Position numbers and translations under genes: made by a program. The notes beneath the pieces are model-generated. The model had not been told where the DNA came from. It worked only from the letters and a program-made list of their open reading frames with translations, and ran no database searches. This document shows, piece after piece, positions 6,546 to 16,454 of a DNA stretch of 64,000 bases. Numbering within the stretch: position 1 is the first letter of the stretch; each line of letters begins with the position of its first letter. This DNA is from Pirellulales bacterium (GTDB lineage Bacteria; Planctomycetota; Planctomycetia; Pirellulales; S012-138): contig JALCBR010000005.1 of assembly GCA_028066245.1 (NCBI GenBank), positions 1-64,000 of the forward strand. Direction: 5' to 3'.

Positions 6546-6997
6546 CGTTCCTATCCTGTTCAAACTACGAGTGATTAACCTTCGCAGGGGCAAGAGCCTT
6601 GGCTATCGGCGACCGGCTCTCAATACTATCGGCCCAACTTTCACTGAAGAAGAGTTGCGGCAAACCAACAAGTCTATCTTGCGGCGTTTTTACAGGCAAT
6701 TGTCCGCCTGGAATGCGGCTACCGCAGCCCAGTTCCTTTGTCGGCCCAACGGCAGATCCTAATAGCCTGACGGTCAACGATGGCTGAACTTTCGTCCAAA
6801 ACAAGGGGAGCTTGTTTCCCGCAGCCGCATGATAACTCCAAACCGCGCTCTTCGCTGAACCTGTGCGCTTTTCAGACCGTCGAGTATAAACACCAGCAAC
6901 ACCCTCTCGGTGCCGTAATTCGCGCGTCCGGCACGCAAAATGGCCATCTCCCGACACCGTCCGGCGCTTTCCTGTGGCCCCAATTACCGTTTGCTCT
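6546..6997. other. Intergenic region between divergent dsbD-like gene and valS
   Basis: It must hold two promoters because the flanking genes point away from each other. I see no convincing open frame, T-box-like leader or hairpin with a T run. Short overlapping frames exist on both strands but lack ribosome binding sites and normal codon use. Confidence 0.4.
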
Positions 6998-9952
6998 ATG
7001 TCCAAACTCCCTAAGCAATACGATCACACTGCTGCCCAAGACCGCTGGTACGCTTTCTGGGAAGGGCAGGGCTATTTCCATAGCCGGCCAAGTGAAAACC
7101 CCTCGGAATCTCCCTACAGCATGGTGATTCCGCCGCCCAACGTGACGGGGGCGCTCCATCTGGGGCATGCTCTCAACAACACAATTCAGGATGTTTTGGT
7201 CCGCTATCAACGCATGCAGGGCCGAAACGCCATGTGGATGCCAGGCACAGACCACGCCGGCATTGCCACCCAGGCGGTGGTGGAACGGCGAATCCGCGAG
7301 GAAGAAGGCAAGACTCGGCACGATCTCGGCCGCCAGGAACTTGTGCGCCGTATCTGGAAATGGAAAGACGAGTACGAAGCCCGAATTCTCGGCCAGCTCA
7401 AGAAGATGGGTGCCAGCTGCGATTGGGATCGCACCAGCTTCACCTTTGACGAGAGCCGTGCCAAAGCCGTGCGGCACTACTTCTTCAGCCTATTCAAGGC
7501 CGGGCTGATCTACCGGGGCAAGCGGCTGGTGAACTGGGATACCCAACTGCAAACGGCCGTGGCTGATGACGAGATCTTCCATGAGACCACTCGCGGCAGT
7601 TTTTGGACGTTCAAGTATCCGGTGGTGGACGAAGCCGGAAAACCAACCGGCGAGTTCCTCAAGTTTTCCACGACTCGCCCCGAGACCATGCTTGGTGACG
7701 TGGCCGTGGCCGTGCATCCGGATGATGAGCGCTACCAACATTTAATCGGCAAAATGCTCGCTCCGCCCATCTTCTCTCGACAAATCCCGATCATCGCTGA
7801 TGCCGAACTCGTCGATCCGGAACTTGGCACCGGAGCCGTGAAGGTCACGCCTGCCCACGATCCCAATGACTATCAGTGTGGGCTGCGCAACAACCTGCCC
7901 ATGCTCAACATCTTGAACATTGACGGCACCATCAATTCTGAAGGTGGCAAGTACGCTGGACAGGATCGCTTTCAGGTGCGCAAGCAGATCACCGACAGGA
8001 TGGAAGAGTTGGGATTGCTTGAGGCCGTGGAAGATCGCGAGATTGAACTTGCTCATAGTGACCGTAGCAAGTCGCCTGTGGAACCGTACCTGTCCGATCA
8101 GTGGTTCGTAAGAATGTCCGATGGGGACGGGCAAGCGGGACTGGCCCAACTCGCCATGGATGCCGTGCAGGATGGTCGTGTGGCGATTCACCCCTCGCGG
8201 TATGCCAAGACATATCTCGATTGGTTGGGCGAGAAACGCGATTGGTGCATCAGTCGCCAATTGTGGTGGGGGCATCAGATCCCGATCTGGCACGCGCCCC
8301 AAGCTACCGAAGAACAATTGCAGGCGGCATTTGGCGACCGTGACGATGTGACTTGGAGCCCCAACGAATCGAGCGGCGGCTTTCTCATCTGTTCGCAAGA
8401 TGACGACCTGCCTGCAGACGCGCTTGCCGGCCAGGCGATCGAGCAAGACCCCGATGTGCTCGATACCTGGTTCTCGTCCGCGTTGTGGCCGATGTCCACG
8501 CTTGGCTGGCCAGAGAACACGCCGGAACTGGACTACTACTATCCTACGGACACCCTGGTGACCAGCCGCGATATCATCACGCTATGGGTGGCGCGGATGG
8601 TGATCGCCGGGCTGCACAACCTGGACCAGATACCGTTTAAGGATGTGTTCATTCATCCCAAGATCTTGGACGGATACGGCGAGACCATGTCCAAGAGCAA
8701 GGGAAACGGCGTGGACCCGCTGGACGTGATTGACCGTTTTGGCGCGGACTCGCTCCGCTTTGGCATTGCGCAACTCTGCACGGAAACGCAAGACGTGCGA
8801 TTGCCGGTGGAGTTCGTCTGCCCTCATTGCCAAGCCCACGTGCCGCAAACCAAGAAGAACCGCTTGCTGGCGCGCGTGAAGTGCAGCGGTTGTGACAAGG
8901 AATTTTCCACGCAATGGGCAGAGAAGGATGAAGACAAGGCGATGCTTCGTGCAGGCGTCACCTCTGAGCGGTTTGAACAGGGGCGCAACTTCTGCAACAA
9001 GTTCTGGAACGCTTCGCGGTTTGTGTTGATGAACCTGGAGGGCTACACGCCCGGGGACGTTTCGGCGGATGAGTTGGCCTTGGAAGATCGCTGGATGCTC
9101 AGTCGCCTGGCGACGGTGTCCCGCCAGGTGACGGCGGCGCTTAACGCGTATCGATTCTCGGAAGCGGCGAACACGTTGTACCACTTTGCTTGGGATGAGT
9201 TTTGCAGCTTTTATGTGGAGATGGCCAAAGTGCGCCTGAACGAGGACACAACCCGACCGACTGCGCAGAGGATCCTCTCGCATGGCTTGGACGTGCTACT
9301 GAAGCTGCTCCATCCGTTGGTGCCTTTCCTGACCGAAGAAGTGTGGCAGGCGTTGGCCGAACTTGCGTCGCAGCGCGGTGTACCAACTCCAGTCACGGGA
9401 AAAGAAAGTGTGATGATCGCACCCTGGCCGGGTACGCAGGAGCATCAACAACAGCTTGACGCGTTCCACGACGCCGCGATTGAAGATCAGTTTGCGCACT
9501 TCCAGGAAGTCCTCCGTAACGTGCGGGAAATCCGCAATCGGCAGAACATCGCGCCCAAGAAGCAGGTGGAGTTCCTGGTGCGGTGTGAGGCCGGCGTTGC
9601 CGAACTTCTCACACCGATGGCGGCTTATTTCGAGTCAATGGCCGCTTCAACGCTCCGCTCCGCCGGCCCGGATGCGGAAGCCCCGCAGACCGCAGCCACA
9701 GCGTCTGCGCCTGGTATGGAGATCTTTGTGGACTTGGCCGGTTTGATTGACGTGGACGCCGAGAAAGCCAAGAACCTGAAGCAAAAGGAGAATCTGACCA
9801 AGCTTATCGCCGGCAAGCAGGGAAAACTTTCCAACCAGAACTTCGTCAGCCGCGCTCCGGCCGAAGTCGTACAAAAAGAAAGGGACGCTTTGGCCGATCT
9901 GCAGAAACAACTCGCCGCCATTGAAGAATTCTTGGCCGCCCAAGCGAAGTAG
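6998..9952 (+). CDS. valS: Valyl-tRNA synthetase
   Basis: Class I aminoacyl-tRNA synthetase that charges tRNA-Val and edits misactivated threonine. HLGH (the HIGH motif) is at residues 54-57, TMSKS (KMSKS) at 563-567, and a C-terminal coiled-coil arm, typical of ValRS, at about 915-984. Total length is 984 residues. ATG 6998 starts at MSKLPKQYDHT, the usual ValRS beginning; a frame-open ATG at 6974 adds eight unlikely residues. Between the KMSKS loop and the anticodon-binding domain there is an insert with two CxxC pairs (C608/C611 and C629/C632) that looks like a small zinc ribbon. It stands alone, divergent from the dsbD-like gene. Confidence 0.97.
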   Translation: MSKLPKQYDHTAAQDRWYAFWEGQGYFHSRPSENPSESPYSMVIPPPNVTGALHLGHALNNTIQDVLVRYQRMQGRNAMWMPGTDHAGIATQAVVERRIREEEGKTRHDLGRQELVRRIWKWKDEYEARILGQLKKMGASCDWDRTSFTFDESRAKAVRHYFFSLFKAGLIYRGKRLVNWDTQLQTAVADDEIFHETTRGSFWTFKYPVVDEAGKPTGEFLKFSTTRPETMLGDVAVAVHPDDERYQHLIGKMLAPPIFSRQIPIIADAELVDPELGTGAVKVTPAHDPNDYQCGLRNNLPMLNILNIDGTINSEGGKYAGQDRFQVRKQITDRMEELGLLEAVEDREIELAHSDRSKSPVEPYLSDQWFVRMSDGDGQAGLAQLAMDAVQDGRVAIHPSRYAKTYLDWLGEKRDWCISRQLWWGHQIPIWHAPQATEEQLQAAFGDRDDVTWSPNESSGGFLICSQDDDLPADALAGQAIEQDPDVLDTWFSSALWPMSTLGWPENTPELDYYYPTDTLVTSRDIITLWVARMVIAGLHNLDQIPFKDVFIHPKILDGYGETMSKSKGNGVDPLDVIDRFGADSLRFGIAQLCTETQDVRLPVEFVCPHCQAHVPQTKKNRLLARVKCSGCDKEFSTQWAEKDEDKAMLRAGVTSERFEQGRNFCNKFWNASRFVLMNLEGYTPGDVSADELALEDRWMLSRLATVSRQVTAALNAYRFSEAANTLYHFAWDEFCSFYVEMAKVRLNEDTTRPTAQRILSHGLDVLLKLLHPLVPFLTEEVWQALAELASQRGVPTPVTGKESVMIAPWPGTQEHQQQLDAFHDAAIEDQFAHFQEVLRNVREIRNRQNIAPKKQVEFLVRCEAGVAELLTPMAAYFESMAASTLRSAGPDAEAPQTAATASAPGMEIFVDLAGLIDVDAEKAKNLKQKENLTKLIAGKQGKLSNQNFVSRAPAEVVQKERDALADLQKQLAAIEEFLAAQAK

Positions 9953-10411
9953 CTCGACGCGATGTCTCGCGTTTTGTGAATGAACACTGTTCAATATCGG
10001 GTGTAGATGCGAGATAGGGCACGGCGAGAATCCGGTTGCCTGGGCTTCTTTTACCGCATCGTCCTGCAAGCGTTATCTTGCAGTGCCTCGCCTTTGTCCG
10101 AGCGTATCACCAAACAGTGTCGCCCACCGGGACCAGCCTAGTCACCAGACGGCATGGGTTCGGTCGATGATCGTCAAATCCGGCGCTGTACTGTTGGTTC
10201 AGTCTCGGAATCGTACACAGATTGCGGCCGAAAAATCCTGGAATTACGTCTGCGCCAATGACAATCCAGGCGAGATATTGCCCGCTGCATTGAGAAACGG
10301 CGGGCAGATTGGCGTCATCTTCGCGCGTTCGCTCTTTCTCTCATCGTCTACGTGATGCATCTGGCATCGCGTGGGTGTGATTCGAACAACTCGAACCCAC
10401 AGAGGAGAGCG
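9953..10411. other. Non-coding gap after valS
   Basis: No gene is supported here. A 7-bp stem with a 6-base loop is at 10064-10083 (CTGCAAG ... CTTGCAG), without a T run, possibly linked to the end of valS transcription. The promoter of the following gene group is presumably in the right half. Confidence 0.35.
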
Positions 10412-10870
10412 ATGTCACAGCATCCCCACTCGCTCCGCGCGCGTTTAGCTTTCATTCGCCGACTGATCGAGTTCTTCCGCGAGAGCGATTTCGGTTCGAT
10501 CCTGGATTTGATCAAGCAGATTGACCAGAAACAGATCATGGAACTCATCGGCGCGGTGCGGCAATTGATGGTCGCTGATGCCTGGGTGGGAGCGGACGGG
10601 CGCGTCGCCGCAGCGATGCGGATTGCCAAGATCGTCGCGCAATTTTCAGAGAGCGAGTTCGACGATCAATTGATCGCCACGCTGGAAGGCATTCTGCAGA
10701 ACGTCGGTGTGCTCAACGCCATCGCCGTTCAGTGCGAAGTCGCAGCCAAAGGACAGCCCGTCGCCATGACCGCAGGAGATCAGGAAATCTATGAAGCGGC
10801 AGGATTCGATCTCGGCACGATTATCGCCATCATCAACTTGATCTTGGAACTCTTCCGCAAAGACGAGTGA
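10412..10870 (+). CDS. Small helical protein of unknown function, first gene of protease/cytochrome cluster
   Basis: A 152-residue protein I do not recognise. It is almost entirely predicted amphipathic helix (for example about residues 10-60 and 75-110), has no signal peptide, and ends in a strongly hydrophobic stretch (GTIIAIINLILELF, about 134-148) followed by RKDE. ATG 10412 is chosen for the ribosome binding site GAGGAGA five to ten bases before it; an upstream in-frame ATG at 10352 lacks one. It lies 65 bases before a subtilase gene on the same strand. The hydrophobic tail could be a membrane anchor or a peptide handled by the protease; that is inference. Confidence 0.75.
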   Translation: MSQHPHSLRARLAFIRRLIEFFRESDFGSILDLIKQIDQKQIMELIGAVRQLMVADAWVGADGRVAAAMRIAKIVAQFSESEFDDQLIATLEGILQNVGVLNAIAVQCEVAAKGQPVAMTAGDQEIYEAAGFDLGTIIAIINLILELFRKDE

Positions 10871-10935
10871 TCTGTCTCTCGTTCATGGTCATCCTTTGTT
10901 TGCAATCTCCTTCCCTTTCGCATTGGGCATAACTC

Positions 10936-12000
10936 ATGTCGACTTGGCGACTTCCTCCGATTTTTGAAGTGTCATCCGCGATTTTGCCGCATGAACTCAC
11001 GGATTTGATTGATTGGGGCCAGAAATTGGTTGGTTTGCCTGCAGCTTGGAAGCAGACACGAGGCGAGGGCATTGATGTCGCAGTCTTGGACACGGGGTGT
11101 GACACCAGCCATCCGGATTTGCAAGGTGCCATCATCGGCGCGCGCGACTTCACGGATTCGCGGTCTGGTGCGGAGGATGCCCATGGTCACGGCACGCACT
11201 GCGCCAGCGTGATTGGAGCGCGTGCCGACGGGCGGGGCATTCGTGGGGGTGCCTCGGCATGCCAGCTGTTGATTGGCAAAGTCCTGGGAGACTCCGGAGC
11301 CGGCAGCGATCAGAGTATTGTCGACGGTCTTGAATGGGCAGTCGACCAGGGAGCCGATGTGATTTCGATGAGTCTCGGCAGCCCGACGGAGAGTTCAACG
11401 ATTCGCGATGCCATCCGACGGGCAACTTTTGAAGGTTGCTTCGTGATTTGCGCTGCGGGCAACACCGGGCAGGCGGACAGTGTGTACTATCCCGGCAAAT
11501 GGACAGAGACCATCGCCGTTTCCGCCGTTGATGAAGGCGGTCGCATTGCCTCTTATTCCTCGCGCGGACCCGAGGTCGACATCGCGGCGCCAGGCTCCAA
11601 TGTCCTGGGAGCAGCACCCGGCGGCGGATACGTGCGGATGTCCGGGACCAGCATGGCGACACCTTTGGTTTCTGCCGTTGTGGCGTTGGTTTTATCTCGT
11701 CACAAGAAACTGGGAAGTCGTTCGAGCACGCCGATCACAACGATCGCGGACCTGCGGGAACATCTTGCCCGCACATCCATGGACGTGGGCAAGCCGGGCA
11801 AGGATGAAGAGTACGGCTACGGGCTGATTCAACCGGGAGTCTTGTTGTCAAATGAAGAAGGCACGGATGAGCCCGGGACAATTGAGCTCTGCGGTGGACT
11901 CAAACTTGTGCTTCCCGCTGATCACGCGGAGGCGGCCGTCAACTTGACGAAGATCTTTGCAGCGTTGCGCAGCTCGGCATTCGTGGAGAGGGCGAAATGA
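10936..12000 (+). CDS. S8 family subtilisin-like serine protease, no signal peptide
   Basis: Subtilisin-fold endopeptidase with a full catalytic set: D52 in VAVLDTGCD, H85 in GHGTH, oxyanion N176 in AAGN, and S239 in SGTSMATP. It has no signal peptide and only about 45 residues before the catalytic core, so no classical inhibitory prodomain; either it stays in the cytoplasm or it uses another export route. After the core (about 295-354) comes a short C-terminal extension with a motif resembling LCGGLKLVLPADHAEA. The stop overlaps the next start by four bases (ATGA), so it is translationally coupled to the membrane CxxCH protein. The family is certain; the target is unknown. Confidence 0.93.
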   Translation: MSTWRLPPIFEVSSAILPHELTDLIDWGQKLVGLPAAWKQTRGEGIDVAVLDTGCDTSHPDLQGAIIGARDFTDSRSGAEDAHGHGTHCASVIGARADGRGIRGGASACQLLIGKVLGDSGAGSDQSIVDGLEWAVDQGADVISMSLGSPTESSTIRDAIRRATFEGCFVICAAGNTGQADSVYYPGKWTETIAVSAVDEGGRIASYSSRGPEVDIAAPGSNVLGAAPGGGYVRMSGTSMATPLVSAVVALVLSRHKKLGSRSSTPITTIADLREHLARTSMDVGKPGKDEEYGYGLIQPGVLLSNEEGTDEPGTIELCGGLKLVLPADHAEAAVNLTKIFAALRSSAFVERAK

Positions 12001-13670
12001 CGCAATCGCCGCTCCTGGACAAGCAGTTTGTCACACTTTGTTGTGAAGTTGACTCCATCCGATCGGAGCTTCGCCGTCAGCGCTGGCACAATCGGCTGGT
12101 GATCTTGGTGCTGTCCGCCCTTTGTTTGCTGGCGGTGGGGCAAACTGTACGTGGCCAACCGGCCGCTGAGTTGGCCAAGGCGGTTGCGGACATTCGGCGC
12201 CTACCGTCGGATGTCGCCCGCCAGGTTCGGTACTTGTCGCTTTACAATTTCCCGGATGCGGAAGATCGGCAGCGTGTCATTGTCGCTGTGTCGATGCTGC
12301 TCAATTCCGCTTCTCAATCAGCGCTGATCGTCAAGCCTACATTGGTTGACGAGACACTCTTGCGGTTCGATCTGGCTGCCTATGGCTGGTCGGAAGAGCA
12401 GTGGGAACAACTTGTGGCCGATGGTGAGCCATACTGGCATCTAACCACCGAAGTGGCCACTGAGATCGACCAAAGACGACCGATCCTCGTTGGTGATTTT
12501 CGCATTAAGACGAAAGAGGGCGAATCTTCCTGGTACTCCGCGGCACGAATTCGTGGCTGGATCGACGGTGGGAGTCTGGCGGCTGATCGCGCGATTCAAC
12601 AGCGCGGGATTGATGGTCAGCTCGGGCCATGGACGACAGTCACTCAGCTCTTGGTTCCCATCGTCGTCAAAGAAACGCAGGTTGTGCAGACGGATGGCGG
12701 CTGGCTGTCCCCACAACTTGTGACACAGCTCAAATCGATCACCGGAAGCCGCGGAGCAATCGCTCGCGCCGATTGGTTTATCGCCAAGCTTTGTGAACCT
12801 GACTTCTACTATGCGTTCGCTGGAGTTGGAACGTCACAGAGGGAACACTACGCGGTGCTAGGTGTCGACGAGAAACAGGTTGACGCGCTATTGATTGAGA
12901 AGGGCACAAACATTTTTGCTCGCGGTCCCACGGGAAAGCCGGGACGGATTGCCCGATTCAATTCACTGGTCGGCGGCATTTGGGCCACCTACGACGTCGC
13001 TAATGCCAACGTAGGCGTCAAGGACCCCTTTCGCGATCCGACCGCAAAGTTCAAGCACAACTTTGACGCCGGTGAATCCTTCGTCCAAGGGCGGAACGGA
13101 CTTTGGCAATTCAATCTCTACGACGCGAACGGCGCAATTGTTGGGGCAGCGGATCCGGATGTGGCCACCGATGGAACAGCGCCCGAGTACGACGCTACGT
13201 TGCGAACTCCCATCTCTTGCTTTCGCTGTCATGCGCAACGAGGGTCCGGAGGGATCATCGATCTGACCTATGACCAACAGCGAATTCTCAACAAGTCTGA
13301 AATCAGTTCCGCTGACGCGGTGGAGATTGCGAAGTTGCAGGCTTTCTACGGTCGGACAGAGCGTCTGGAAATCGAAATGCAACGTGACCGCGAGGATGCC
13401 GACACCGCAGCCAAAGAAGCAACCGGCGTATCGTGGAGCGCTGCGGCTCTCGCCATCGCGAGAGTTCATGACGAATACGTCTATGGCCGTGTCAGTCTGG
13501 ATGTCATCAAACAAGAGCTAGCAACTGATGACCTACGTCCGTTGCTGCAATCGCAAGATCCACTCGCACTAGCGGCCGCGGCGAACCACGGTTTCGCCGG
13601 AGTGATCCGTGGGCAATGGGAGACCGCGTTCGCAGAAGCCATGGCACGAATCCAGGGAGCACAACAGTGA
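11997..13670 (+). CDS. Membrane-anchored protein with one CxxCH haem-c-type motif, unknown function
   Basis: A 557-residue protein that I cannot assign to a named family. Residues 1-31 are charged and probably cytoplasmic, 32-52 form one membrane span (signal anchor), and the rest should be periplasmic. A single CFRCH motif at 408-412 fits covalent haem attachment, followed by a helical region rich in acidic residues (430-500). The part before it (about 60-400) is mixed alpha/beta and without known motifs. It overlaps the protease gene by four bases and precedes a small c-type cytochrome gene, suggesting that these proteins work together in redox or sensing. Haem binding is inferred from the motif; a structural use of CxxCH cannot be excluded. 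Confidence 0.8.
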   Translation: MTQSPLLDKQFVTLCCEVDSIRSELRRQRWHNRLVILVLSALCLLAVGQTVRGQPAAELAKAVADIRRLPSDVARQVRYLSLYNFPDAEDRQRVIVAVSMLLNSASQSALIVKPTLVDETLLRFDLAAYGWSEEQWEQLVADGEPYWHLTTEVATEIDQRRPILVGDFRIKTKEGESSWYSAARIRGWIDGGSLAADRAIQQRGIDGQLGPWTTVTQLLVPIVVKETQVVQTDGGWLSPQLVTQLKSITGSRGAIARADWFIAKLCEPDFYYAFAGVGTSQREHYAVLGVDEKQVDALLIEKGTNIFARGPTGKPGRIARFNSLVGGIWATYDVANANVGVKDPFRDPTAKFKHNFDAGESFVQGRNGLWQFNLYDANGAIVGAADPDVATDGTAPEYDATLRTPISCFRCHAQRGSGGIIDLTYDQQRILNKSEISSADAVEIAKLQAFYGRTERLEIEMQRDREDADTAAKEATGVSWSAAALAIARVHDEYVYGRVSLDVIKQELATDDLRPLLQSQDPLALAAAANHGFAGVIRGQWETAFAEAMARIQGAQQ

Positions 13671-13866
13671 CCTACGCCGAATTTGAATCTCGCGCTGGAC
13701 ATGACCGCTTCATCGTGATGACACAGCATGTCTTCCAAGTCGGCAGTCATGCCGTTATTTGTCTGCCGGGCGCAAGCTGGATGTCAAAGGCACGGTCGAA
13801 GACTTGCTCTCAATCTTGACGAAGGCAACACGCTTGCCGGAGCGACAAGCGGAATTGGCCGCTTAG
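13667..13866 (+). pseudogene. Possible short coupled ORF broken by a frameshift
   Basis: A GTG at 13667 overlaps the upstream stop (GTGA) and opens a frame that reads sensibly for about 30 codons (starting VTYAEFESRAGHDRF) before becoming implausible and stopping at 13819. A second frame from about 13760 to the stop at 13864-13866 reads LDVKGTVEDLLSILTKATRL, with codon use like its neighbours. Joining the two needs one shift near 13750-13765 and would give about 66 residues. This may be a decayed gene, a sequence error, or chance. It sits exactly between the CxxCH membrane protein and the cytochrome gene. Confidence 0.35.
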
Positions 13867-13919
13867 GCCAAACGAGTGCGCGCTTGTTCAACACACCAAA
13901 GAACACAAGGAACACGACC

Positions 13920-14435
13920 ATGAAACGAGTTCTAACATTGGCCATTTGCGTCCTCTTTGCCTTGGGACACTTTGCGGCTGCACATGCGGACGGCCTGTGC
14001 AGAGTAAGGTCCGTACAAAAAAGTGTCGTTCAGACCAAGTTTGTCACGCCCTATGCTGTGGCCCTGGGCGTTCCTGTCGCCAACTATTCCGGCGTCAGCT
14101 ATTCGTACAACGGATCAGCAACTCAGTCAGCGGCGTCTGATGAGCAAATCAAGCGCGCCGTTAAAGCGGCTCTGCTGGAAATCCTCCAGAATTCAGGCGG
14201 TGACATCACGGCGCTTACCCAATCGACGCCGACACTCGTGCAACAGAATTGTGCCGCCTGCCACACGGGAGATTTGGCCAAGGGAGGCTTCCGTGTCGAC
14301 CAGCCACTGGACGACGCCAGTCGTCTCCTCGCTTCTCGTCAGGTGCTATTGGGTGAGATGCCGCGAGGCAAGCAGATTGACGAGCAAACGCGCGGCAATT
14401 TGCTGGGCGAGTTGGTTGGAGTCGATTCCAAATGA
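13920..14435 (+). CDS. Small secreted mono-haem c-type cytochrome-like protein
   Basis: A 171-residue exported protein. The signal peptide covers residues 1-23 (ending AAAHA). The N-terminal mature part is rich in Val, Ser and Tyr. The haem motif is CAACH at 111-115, and M147 in LLGEMPRGKQ is a plausible sixth haem ligand, as in small class I cytochromes. A helix (about 75-95) precedes the motif. ATG 13920 gives the signal peptide; an earlier in-frame start at 13728 would add 64 residues without merit. The stop overlaps the start of a 39-codon ORF (ATGA). Its role is probably electron transfer with the upstream CxxCH membrane protein, which is inference from context. Confidence 0.82.
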   Translation: MKRVLTLAICVLFALGHFAAAHADGLCRVRSVQKSVVQTKFVTPYAVALGVPVANYSGVSYSYNGSATQSAASDEQIKRAVKAALLEILQNSGGDITALTQSTPTLVQQNCAACHTGDLAKGGFRVDQPLDDASRLLASRQVLLGEMPRGKQIDEQTRGNLLGELVGVDSK

Positions 14436-14551
14436 CTACCGAGCGCGAATCTCACGTTGCGGTAGAGAATATCGAGACCGTCATGGTCGATCCAAAGAAA
14501 TCACGCGGCTGCGGCCGCACCGTTTTTTCCTTCTCTTGTAGGAGCAAATGA
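14432..14551 (+). CDS. 39-residue ORF coupled at both ends
   Basis: ATG 14432 overlaps the cytochrome stop by four bases (ATGA), and its own stop at 14549-14551 overlaps the next start by four bases (ATGATG). The frame fills the gap exactly. The product begins MTTERESHVAVENIETVMVD and ends with a basic stretch containing two cysteines (RGCGRTVFSFSCRSK). No signal peptide or membrane span is present. The next gene's ribosome binding site (TAGGAG) lies inside this ORF. It may be a real small protein or a translated linker that couples its neighbours. I know no relative. Confidence 0.5.
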   Translation: MTTERESHVAVENIETVMVDPKKSRGCGRTVFSFSCRSK

Positions 14552-14928
14552 TGAAAGCTTTTGTTGTTGCGATTTGCGTTTGCCTGTCCTTGTCGATCTG
14601 TTTATGCACACCAGCGGCGGCGGGGAATTGCCATGCTGTAAGTATTGTGAACAGTCGAGTTGTCGTGCAGGCGGCCGATGTTCCCCACGTCAATAGCGTG
14701 CAGAGTCTGGTTGTTCCTTTTGCCGCTCAACACGTGTCAAAGTTCAATGCATCGGCTCATGCGCTGCAAAGTCATGTTCTTCAAGCGGTCGCAGTGCCGG
14801 TCGTTGCCAACCAAGCGTTTGTTGTTCAGCAAAATCATTGCGCGCGAGTTCAACAGCGCGCATTTGTTGTTGAACAGCGTGTACGACGAGAACGCCGCGG
14901 ACTTGCGAGATTGTTGCTGGGGCGATAG
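14548..14928 (+). CDS. Secreted Val/Gln/His-rich small protein, unknown
   Basis: A 126-residue exported protein. The signal peptide is residues 1-26 (MMKAFVVAICVCLSL... ending PAAAG), followed by a cysteine and a Val/Gln/His-rich region with repeated VVQ, VPV and HALQSHVLQ-like stretches, then a strongly basic C-terminus (about 108-126, with RRERRG). The ribosome binding site TAGGAG is six bases before ATG 14548. The start of the mature part (NCHAVSIVNSRVVVQ) resembles that of the cytochrome two genes upstream (LCRVRSVQKSVVQ), hinting at a shared localisation or interaction segment. No function is assigned. It is the last gene of the cluster; about 600 non-coding bases follow. Confidence 0.7.
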   Translation: MMKAFVVAICVCLSLSICLCTPAAAGNCHAVSIVNSRVVVQAADVPHVNSVQSLVVPFAAQHVSKFNASAHALQSHVLQAVAVPVVANQAFVVQQNHCARVQQRAFVVEQRVRRERRGLARLLLGR

Positions 14929-15536
14929 CCAGTTTGGGAATCGAACAAGCGCGATAAGACATCCAAAGCGTGGAGTTGTGGTTGGTGAAAGATCGTCAAG
15001 CAGCAAAAACCAACCGACAAGAACCAAGAACAACAATCAAGATACGCAACGAAGAAAGTTGCATGCGTGTTACACGTACCACAGCGCGCAGATTTTCCGT
15101 TCGCGGTATTCTGCATTCGCTTTTCGGAATCGTTGTTAAAGTTTCTTGACAAACGCCGCTGCCGCCAGAGAATGGTGCCACAACTTCGCGTTTGGGATTG
15201 GCTTTCACTTCGCGCTTTCGCGTGACGCTCTTATAAGAACCGGTTTAAATCTTGATTCGATCGCGCTCTCTTTGCGCGCGGCGAGCTAGGATTGTTGCGG
15301 TCGCCACCCCCTGCGGAGTTTCGGAGTTTGTGTCTGACACGCAGAGCACAGGGGGCGGTGACCGAGAGGATCGACAATCGGCGACCTGGTCGCGGCCCGG
15401 ATGTCCCCCCGGCTTTTGCGTTTTTGTACACTGTGCAAGCTTGCTGAATTGTGCTCCACGGAATTGCGGTTGAAGAATTCTAGATTCACGCCACGGAGGG
15501 CGAGTGCTGCAATCTGCTGCCTGATATGATCCTGCG
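14929..15536. other. 608-bp stretch without a gene
   Basis: Only short overlapping frames without start signals occur on either strand. There is no hairpin with a T run and no clear repeat. The promoter for folK presumably lies in the right part. Confidence 0.4.
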
Positions 15537-16454
15537 ATGGCAATGGTCCTGATTGCGTTGGGCGGAAATATCGGGGACCGCGAGGCCAACCTGCAAACTG
15601 CGGTTAGCGAATTGGCGGCAACCGCGGGCATTTCCCAACTTGTCCACAGCAGTTTCTTGGAAACGGTCGCCGTGGGTGGACCGCCGGATCAACCCAGTTT
15701 CCTCAACGCCGCAGCTCGTTTTGAGTGTCGGTTTTCTCCGTTGTCTTTGGCTGGGGAACTGCATGAGATCGAAGCCCGGTTGGGACGCAATCGTGGAACT
15801 CGCTGGGATGCACGGACGATTGACCTTGATCTCTTGTTGTATGACGACCTTGTCTGTCGCACGCACGAACTGGAACTTCCGCATCCGAGGATGACGTTTC
15901 GCCGCTTTGTCTTGCAGCCAGCGGCAGAGGTGGCAGCCGAATTGCGCATTCCCAGTTCCCGCTGGACAATTTCCCAGCATTTGCAGCATTTGCAGCAAGC
16001 GCCTCGGTTACTGGCAATCGCTGGCGGGCCGTTGGAGCAACGAGCGAGGGTCGCCCAGCAAGTAGCCGCGGAATTGTCCGGAGAGTACGTCGACTCACCA
16101 AAGGACACAGGTCAAGCCACAACAGAATCGATGCATCCTCACTGGCAAATTGTCAACGGCTGGACTGCCGAAACACGGCTCGACATGCATGATGGTTTTC
16201 CTGGTGAAGGCAACTCCGAATTTTGGTTAGAGGATGAGTTCGGACCCCGACCGCGAGTGCTCGCCATCTTGCAAGAACGGGTTGCGTCAAGGCATTCGTC
16301 GGCAACACAAAACCAGCCGCTTGCTCCCATCAGTGATACACTTGCGGATAGCTTGACAAATTTTTCTGGTGGGGGTGTTTTGCGCCTCGACGCGGATAAG
16401 CCAATGGTGGAACTCGTCGCTGAAGTCGTCGCTGCGGCTCAGGCGACGGAGTAG
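15537..16454 (+). CDS. folK: 2-amino-4-hydroxy-6-hydroxymethyldihydropteridine pyrophosphokinase with C-terminal extension
   Basis: Transfers pyrophosphate from ATP to 6-hydroxymethyl-7,8-dihydropterin in folate synthesis. The HPPK core covers residues 1 to about 140: ALGGNIGD (7-14), the FLNAA segment, and the conserved block GTRWDARTIDLDLLLYDD (about 88-105) with HPRM. The protein is 305 residues, about twice the usual HPPK length. The second half begins LLAIAGGPLEQRARVAQQVA, which has the layout of a kinase P-loop and helix but lacks the GKS/T residues, so it may be a degenerate deoxynucleoside-kinase-like domain; that is inference. It is followed on the same strand by panC and folC. Confidence 0.9.
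   Translation: MAMVLIALGGNIGDREANLQTAVSELAATAGISQLVHSSFLETVAVGGPPDQPSFLNAAARFECRFSPLSLAGELHEIEARLGRNRGTRWDARTIDLDLLLYDDLVCRTHELELPHPRMTFRRFVLQPAAEVAAELRIPSSRWTISQHLQHLQQAPRLLAIAGGPLEQRARVAQQVAAELSGEYVDSPKDTGQATTESMHPHWQIVNGWTAETRLDMHDGFPGEGNSEFWLEDEFGPRPRVLAILQERVASRHSSATQNQPLAPISDTLADSLTNFSGGGVLRLDADKPMVELVAEVVAAAQATE

Follow-up and report, generated by a model that had tools for sequence, protein, structure and literature searches.

A phage-derived late-gene cassette in Pirellulales joins an exported haem-type protein pair to an exchangeable protease

The window analysed here, a 64,000-nucleotide stretch of a Pirellulales genome, contains five genes (g1, g2, g3, g5 and g6) that, on good evidence, are a late-gene cassette of phage origin standing on its own. 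It is likewise well supported that two exported haem-type proteins, g3 and g5, make up the core of this cassette. A small helical protein and a signal-less protease are encoded ahead of them, and a secreted protein of low complexity after them. In related planctomycetes the cassette stands at the left end of a head and packaging cluster that is inherited mostly vertically and resembles a gene transfer agent (GTA), and in tailed phages it lies amid structural or packaging genes, a placement that is also well supported. The g3 family is undescribed in the libraries that we searched, whereas the other parts of the cassette belong to known kinds. The cassette probably helps virus-like particles to act on, or to leave through, the host envelope.

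The cassette lies between valS (6974-9952) on one side and folK (15537) on the other. All six open reading frames that the original prediction placed in a row on one strand were found there, spanning positions 10412-14928 of the window:

g1, 10412 to 10870, + strand: 152 aa, helical, without a signal peptide, in the slot immediately 5' of the protease.
g2, 10936 to 12000, + strand: S8 subtilase of 354 aa with the triad D52/H85/S239 and no evident signal peptide.
g3, 11997 to 13670, + strand: 557 aa, predicted to be exported, with a single CxxCH (CFRCH, residues 408-412) and a 4-base overlap with g2.
g4, 13667 to 13819, + strand: GTG frame of 50 aa with a 4-base overlap with g3; doubtful gene.
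g5, 13920 to 14435, + strand: 171 aa, predicted to be secreted, cytochrome c-like, with Met-Pro downstream of its CAACH.
g6, 14548 to 14928, + strand: 126 aa, predicted to be secreted, V/A-rich, in the slot 3' of g5.

The junction spacings from g1 to g6 are +65, -4, -4, +100 and +112 bases, so that the four-base overlaps, described earlier for most junctions, hold for only two of the five. No counterpart of g4 was found in relatives, which makes it doubtful, and it may not be a real gene. The region around it (13667-13870 of the window) reads, in another frame, LSAGRKLDVKGTVEDLLSILTKATRLPERQAELAA before a stop, and could be the remnant of a frameshifted small gene. Translation of g5 probably begins at ATG 13920, since a signal peptide results from that start, and a longer frame from 13728 is probably spurious. 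The window holds no tRNA, and a sigma-70 scan of 9900-15600 gave a single match, 3' of the cassette at 15146-15173, with no site inside or 5' of it. Export was judged by a simple hydropathy measure and not by a signal-peptide predictor; g3, g5 and g6 begin with strongly hydrophobic segments typical of export, and g2 has no such segment. By BLAST, g1 has no similarity to the proteins that occupy the same slot in relatives, and it is equivalent to the small helical proteins of relatives and phages by position and character only. The proteins that follow g5 elsewhere are alike to g6 in character but are of a different family.

With g3 as the query, a match was obtained in 32 of the 98 genomes searched from this order. 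The repeated order around them, a composite from which some loci lack some parts, runs from a small one-helix protein through a small helical protein, the protease, g3, g5 and a secreted V/A-rich small protein to ParB-like, ABC/GNAT (phrog_11143), small terminase, large terminase, portal, capsid-type and connector genes. The cassette order is seen again in some 20 genomes as well as in phages, and is therefore more than chance; the named records that carry it are planctomycete assemblies, including a Pirellula sp. and a Pirellulales MAG. The original prediction was to fall if the gene order, or the CxxCH motifs, proved unconserved. The same order was found in other planctomycetes and the motifs are conserved in homologues of both g3 and g5, so neither ground for refutation applies, and the unusual pairing of a cytoplasm-type protease with exported haem-type proteins is genuine and conserved.

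The g3 protein had been described as membrane-anchored with one CFRCH. The motif is present, but the anchor is doubtful: because homologues have ordinary signal-peptide-like N-termini, the hydrophobic segment at residues 34-45 may be a long cleavable signal. Profile searches, which had been proposed for this protein, left it below every cut-off in Pfam, NCBIfam and PHROGs, and no sequence among solved structures matched it. Its predicted structure is fairly confident (pLDDT 80, pTM 0.76); a Foldseek comparison of this model, covering PDB and the viral BFVD, gave no match at E<=0.001, which does not prove a new fold. The CxxCH is constant in 39 aligned g3 proteins, partly because frames were picked by that motif, and is also present in every row of two alignments built from homology hits (A1 and A3). 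Among the 39 there is no second invariant His or Met, while Tyr271, Tyr272 and Asp333 are invariant; this pattern makes an open or Tyr-ligated haem possible in g3, should haem be loaded at all. At one locus (L048:5637-7091), g3 seems to continue into a g6-like tail and g5 is absent, as if deleted.

The CAACH described for g5 is present, in a cytochrome c-like sequence. CxxCH is followed by Met-Pro in all 25 aligned g5 proteins and in six more, frames that had been picked by CxxCH. The Met of this Met-Pro is the expected second axial haem ligand, and by its motifs g5 would be classed as a c-type cytochrome. Its match to PSCyt1 (PF07635) reaches 16.6 bits, below the Pfam gathering score of 22 bits, and that to Cytochrome_CBB3 is likewise weak and sub-cut-off.

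That g2 is an S8 protease without a signal peptide, as first proposed, was confirmed: it scores 209.6 bits against Peptidase_S8 (cut-off 21.8) and has D52, H85 and S239, the S8 catalytic motifs are found in 17 of 17 homologues, and its best matches among solved structures are intracellular serine proteases and intracellular subtilisins. An assignment to the type VII secretion mycosins (TIGR03921) was rejected at 198.8 bits, the curated cut-off being 278.75. The protease slot is not always filled by this family. Among 22 planctomycete loci with readable sequence 5' of g3, an S8 homologue was found in 16 and a papain-like protein in four; one (L042) has no protease upstream of g3, and at another (L035) the 490-aa neighbour matches no family. 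The papain-like planctomycete set (A6) aligns with phage C1-like proteins at an hhalign probability of 92.6; compared directly with solved proteases, it gave no match. In phage contigs the neighbour may be S8 (L102), a sedolisin with a Pro-kumamolisin domain (L100; a second sedolisin match, in L142, is weak), papain-like C1 (above cut-off in L110 and L141, weak in L099 and L104) or a matrixin of family M10 (L137), and in L139 an astacin (M12A) lies a few genes downstream. The neighbours of five further contigs (L101, L103, L106, L107 and L108), scanned in part, yielded no adjoining protease. In bacteria generally, no more than a few percent of genes encode peptidases. S8 and sedolisin have a common fold that is absent from the papain-like enzymes and from both metalloprotease types. 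These families are usually secreted; none of the proteases inspected beside the cassette has an evident signal peptide. The protease thus changes family while the g3-g5 pair stays constant.

Copies in phages include that of the 595-kb phage record LR756511.1 (L099), in which genes for a papain-like protease and a helical protein are followed, in one row, by g3, g5 and the gene for a repeat protein. In that record tblastn placed g3 at two sites, one of which was read. Scans of IMG/VR added more g3-bearing contigs, and on most of these g5 comes next, although not all are independent (L105/L106 and L107/L109 overlap or are closely related); in L107 and L109 a different small secreted protein takes the place of g5. 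On some phage contigs the pair adjoins capsid-family, portal or terminase genes. Small one-helix proteins are encoded near some cassette copies, none being seen in the window, and none reached the cut-off of a holin family. Six classical peptidoglycan-hydrolase families were looked for in the 15 carrier virus records: five did not occur in any of them, and M23 was found in LR756511.1 alone; most of these records are fragments, and missing endolysins therefore prove little.

In relatives g3 usually lies 5' of the ParB-like, ABC/GNAT, terminase, portal and capsid genes. The original prediction overlooked this phage-type nature of the cassette, which stands among phage late genes and, in relatives, upstream of terminase and portal. 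The large terminase is present in 74 of the 98 genomes, the best copy mostly at 50-70% identity to the query, and some genomes have additional, weaker matches. A tree of 33 terminases requires 14 changes of family label, against a minimum of 11 and an average of 24.5 in shuffles; several families each group in a strongly supported clade and a few are not monophyletic. The simplest account is that inheritance has been mainly vertical, with some exchange. Relatives of the cluster terminase occur in RcapMu and Pseudomonas phages, and the cluster looks GTA-like. In many families of the order it lies beside moaB and an endonuclease/exonuclease/phosphatase gene (L038-L049 and L066-L079; for example G044 C29 and G040 C1), where it has the look of a gene transfer agent or a domesticated prophage. 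One genome (G007) has both a prophage-like region with the cassette (L050 with L079) and, on another contig (L097), a GTA-like cluster without it.

Where g3 is absent (L083-L098), the slot before ParB and terminase often encodes a Trypsin_2-domain protein with a hydrophobic C-terminal segment, together with a conserved protein of about 286 aa to which Pfam assigns no family. A 207-aa protein of this slot, likened by eye to NlpC/P60, had no match in Pfam. The window's cassette, like that of G019, has no packaging genes adjoining. Its own genome has the packaging parts split over contigs and apart from the cassette: ParB-like and ABC/GNAT genes on one (G000:C8:37745-38821, L152), and, at the end of another (G000:C156:72277-75366; L080 and L145), a terminase gene and a portal gene whose frame holds one in-frame TGA. 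The packaging part may be decaying in this genome, whereas the frames of g1, g2, g3, g5 and g6 are open.

Distant cellular homologues of g3 are proteins of 590-740 aa with two CxxCH motifs and a PSCyt1 domain ahead of the g3 region. According to Pfam, a caspase-domain gene adjoins the homologue at four of six loci; an earlier labelling of these neighbours as PSD1/DUF1501 proteins was dropped in favour of the caspase domains. The caspase (C14) domains at L053, L055, L057 and L058 are joined to FGE-sulfatase, WD40 or TPR domains, and L053 has a sigma-70 region 2 protein nearby. Together with the exchange of proteases in the cassette, these caspase genes strengthen the link between the haem protein and proteases.

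We tentatively favour, at a little short of an even chance, a late cassette that acts on the host envelope during particle production. The late-gene location, the exported g3, g5 and g6, the signal-less protease with its exchange between families, and the Trypsin_2 protein that often takes the slot at loci without g3 all point to the envelope and to a late stage, and the near-absence of peptidoglycan-hydrolase families from the carrier virus records lends weak support to egress. Under this proposal g3, g5 and g6 would be exported past the inner membrane while the protease builds up in the cytoplasm, to reach its envelope targets after a breach of the membrane, perhaps made by small helical or one-helix proteins whose genes lie close by. 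The g5 protein, with what would be a His/Met-type haem, may hand electrons to g3, whose haem would lack a conserved second His or Met ligand. Egress by itself leaves the requirement for haem unexplained, and the copies in the window and in G019 without adjoining packaging genes, like the phage copies with no protease among their scanned neighbours, count against this proposal. The caspase neighbours of the cellular homologues keep alive a rival that we consider unlikely and that extends the redox-sensing idea of the original prediction, namely that g3 and g5 sense redox state, peroxide or gas and so time a partner protease, as a stress or death switch. It would account for the repeated presence of the same pair beside proteases of differing families and for the fusion of PSCyt1 to g3 in homologues that mostly neighbour caspase genes, and the possible open haem of g3 would suit a sensor. 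It must also explain how exported proteins would govern a protease without a signal peptide when no membrane-crossing signalling part was found, and one inhibitor common to all the cassette proteases is improbable because their active sites differ. We regard as similarly doubtful the broader proposal of a new exported haem-protein family coupled to varied proteases, forming a haem-gated module of phages, GTA-like elements and caspase loci, with subtilase, sedolisin, papain-like, matrixin and astacin types and, in the cellular form, caspases.

A two-haem peroxidase or oxidase made of g3 and g5, protecting or energising the infected cell with the protease as a separate matter, is distinctly unlikely; in its favour, g5 has the motif and the Met expected of a cytochrome that transfers electrons, no second ligand is invariant in g3, and the cellular homologues are two-CxxCH fusions, but it gives no reason why proteases, whatever their family, keep occurring next to the pair. 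It is less probable still that the variable protease is an effector that, with envelope partners, shields a phage- or cluster-carrying cell from other phages. A changing protease beside a conserved core does recall effector exchange in conflict systems, and g2 is matched by PADLOC subtilase models; these were however generic, no PADLOC model was matched by g3 or g1 and only marginally by g5, the IetS match is weak (28 bits), the IetA ATPase that IetAS defence pairs with IetS was not found among the cassette proteins scanned, and a late structural location is unusual for such systems, so that the defence assignment was set aside. Processing of capsid or tail proteins during virion maturation would fit a cytoplasmic protease near head genes, and phage S8 proteins do form a PHROG; this role is nevertheless very improbable, given that the carrier contig L106 has its own S78 prohead protease, that exported g3, g5 and g6 are unsuited to virion assembly, and that the copies in the window and in G019 have no head genes nearby. 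Finally, the window's copy, seen between valS and folK with no adjoining phage gene, could pass for an ordinary host operon, but we reject this as scarcely credible because the order recurs with phage packaging genes, terminase and portal among them, and inside phage contigs.

If the envelope reading holds, planctomycetes and their phages use a late cassette in which haem-type proteins work with an exchangeable protease, a combination for which we found no described counterpart among phages, GTAs or defence systems. An undescribed protein family would then be connected with a packaging cluster that a whole order of bacteria has retained, so that gene transfer of the GTA kind in planctomycetes would become testable, and exported c-type haem proteins would be tied to proteases, caspases included, in bacteria. 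The open-licence literature yielded nothing on planctomycete GTAs of this type, on the pairing of haem proteins with proteases, or naming LR756511.

Several known systems resemble parts of this arrangement. With the intracellular subtilisins (S8, Bacillus ISP type), g2 shares the absence of a signal peptide, the full triad and its best solved matches; unlike them, it belongs to a fixed cassette that also encodes exported haem-type proteins, and we know of no ISP in such a setting. The planctomycete PSCyt1-type cytochromes (PF07635) are like g5 in having CxxCH and a following Met, and their domain is carried by the cellular g3 homologues, although g3 itself matches no family and g5 stays below the cut-off. 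Phage lysis cassettes (holin, endolysin, spanin) are also late genes with a signal-less hydrolase and exported partners, and small one-helix proteins lie near some copies here; the hydrolase in the present case is a protease, however, the exported partners have haem motifs and no holin was recognised. The relatives' cluster differs from gene transfer agents of the RcGTA kind in a terminase that resembles those of RcapMu and Pseudomonas phages, and the window's cassette is detached from it. It nevertheless combines terminase, portal, capsid and connector genes with mostly vertical inheritance, and vertically inherited head and packaging genes are one mark of a GTA, as particles that carry host DNA are another.
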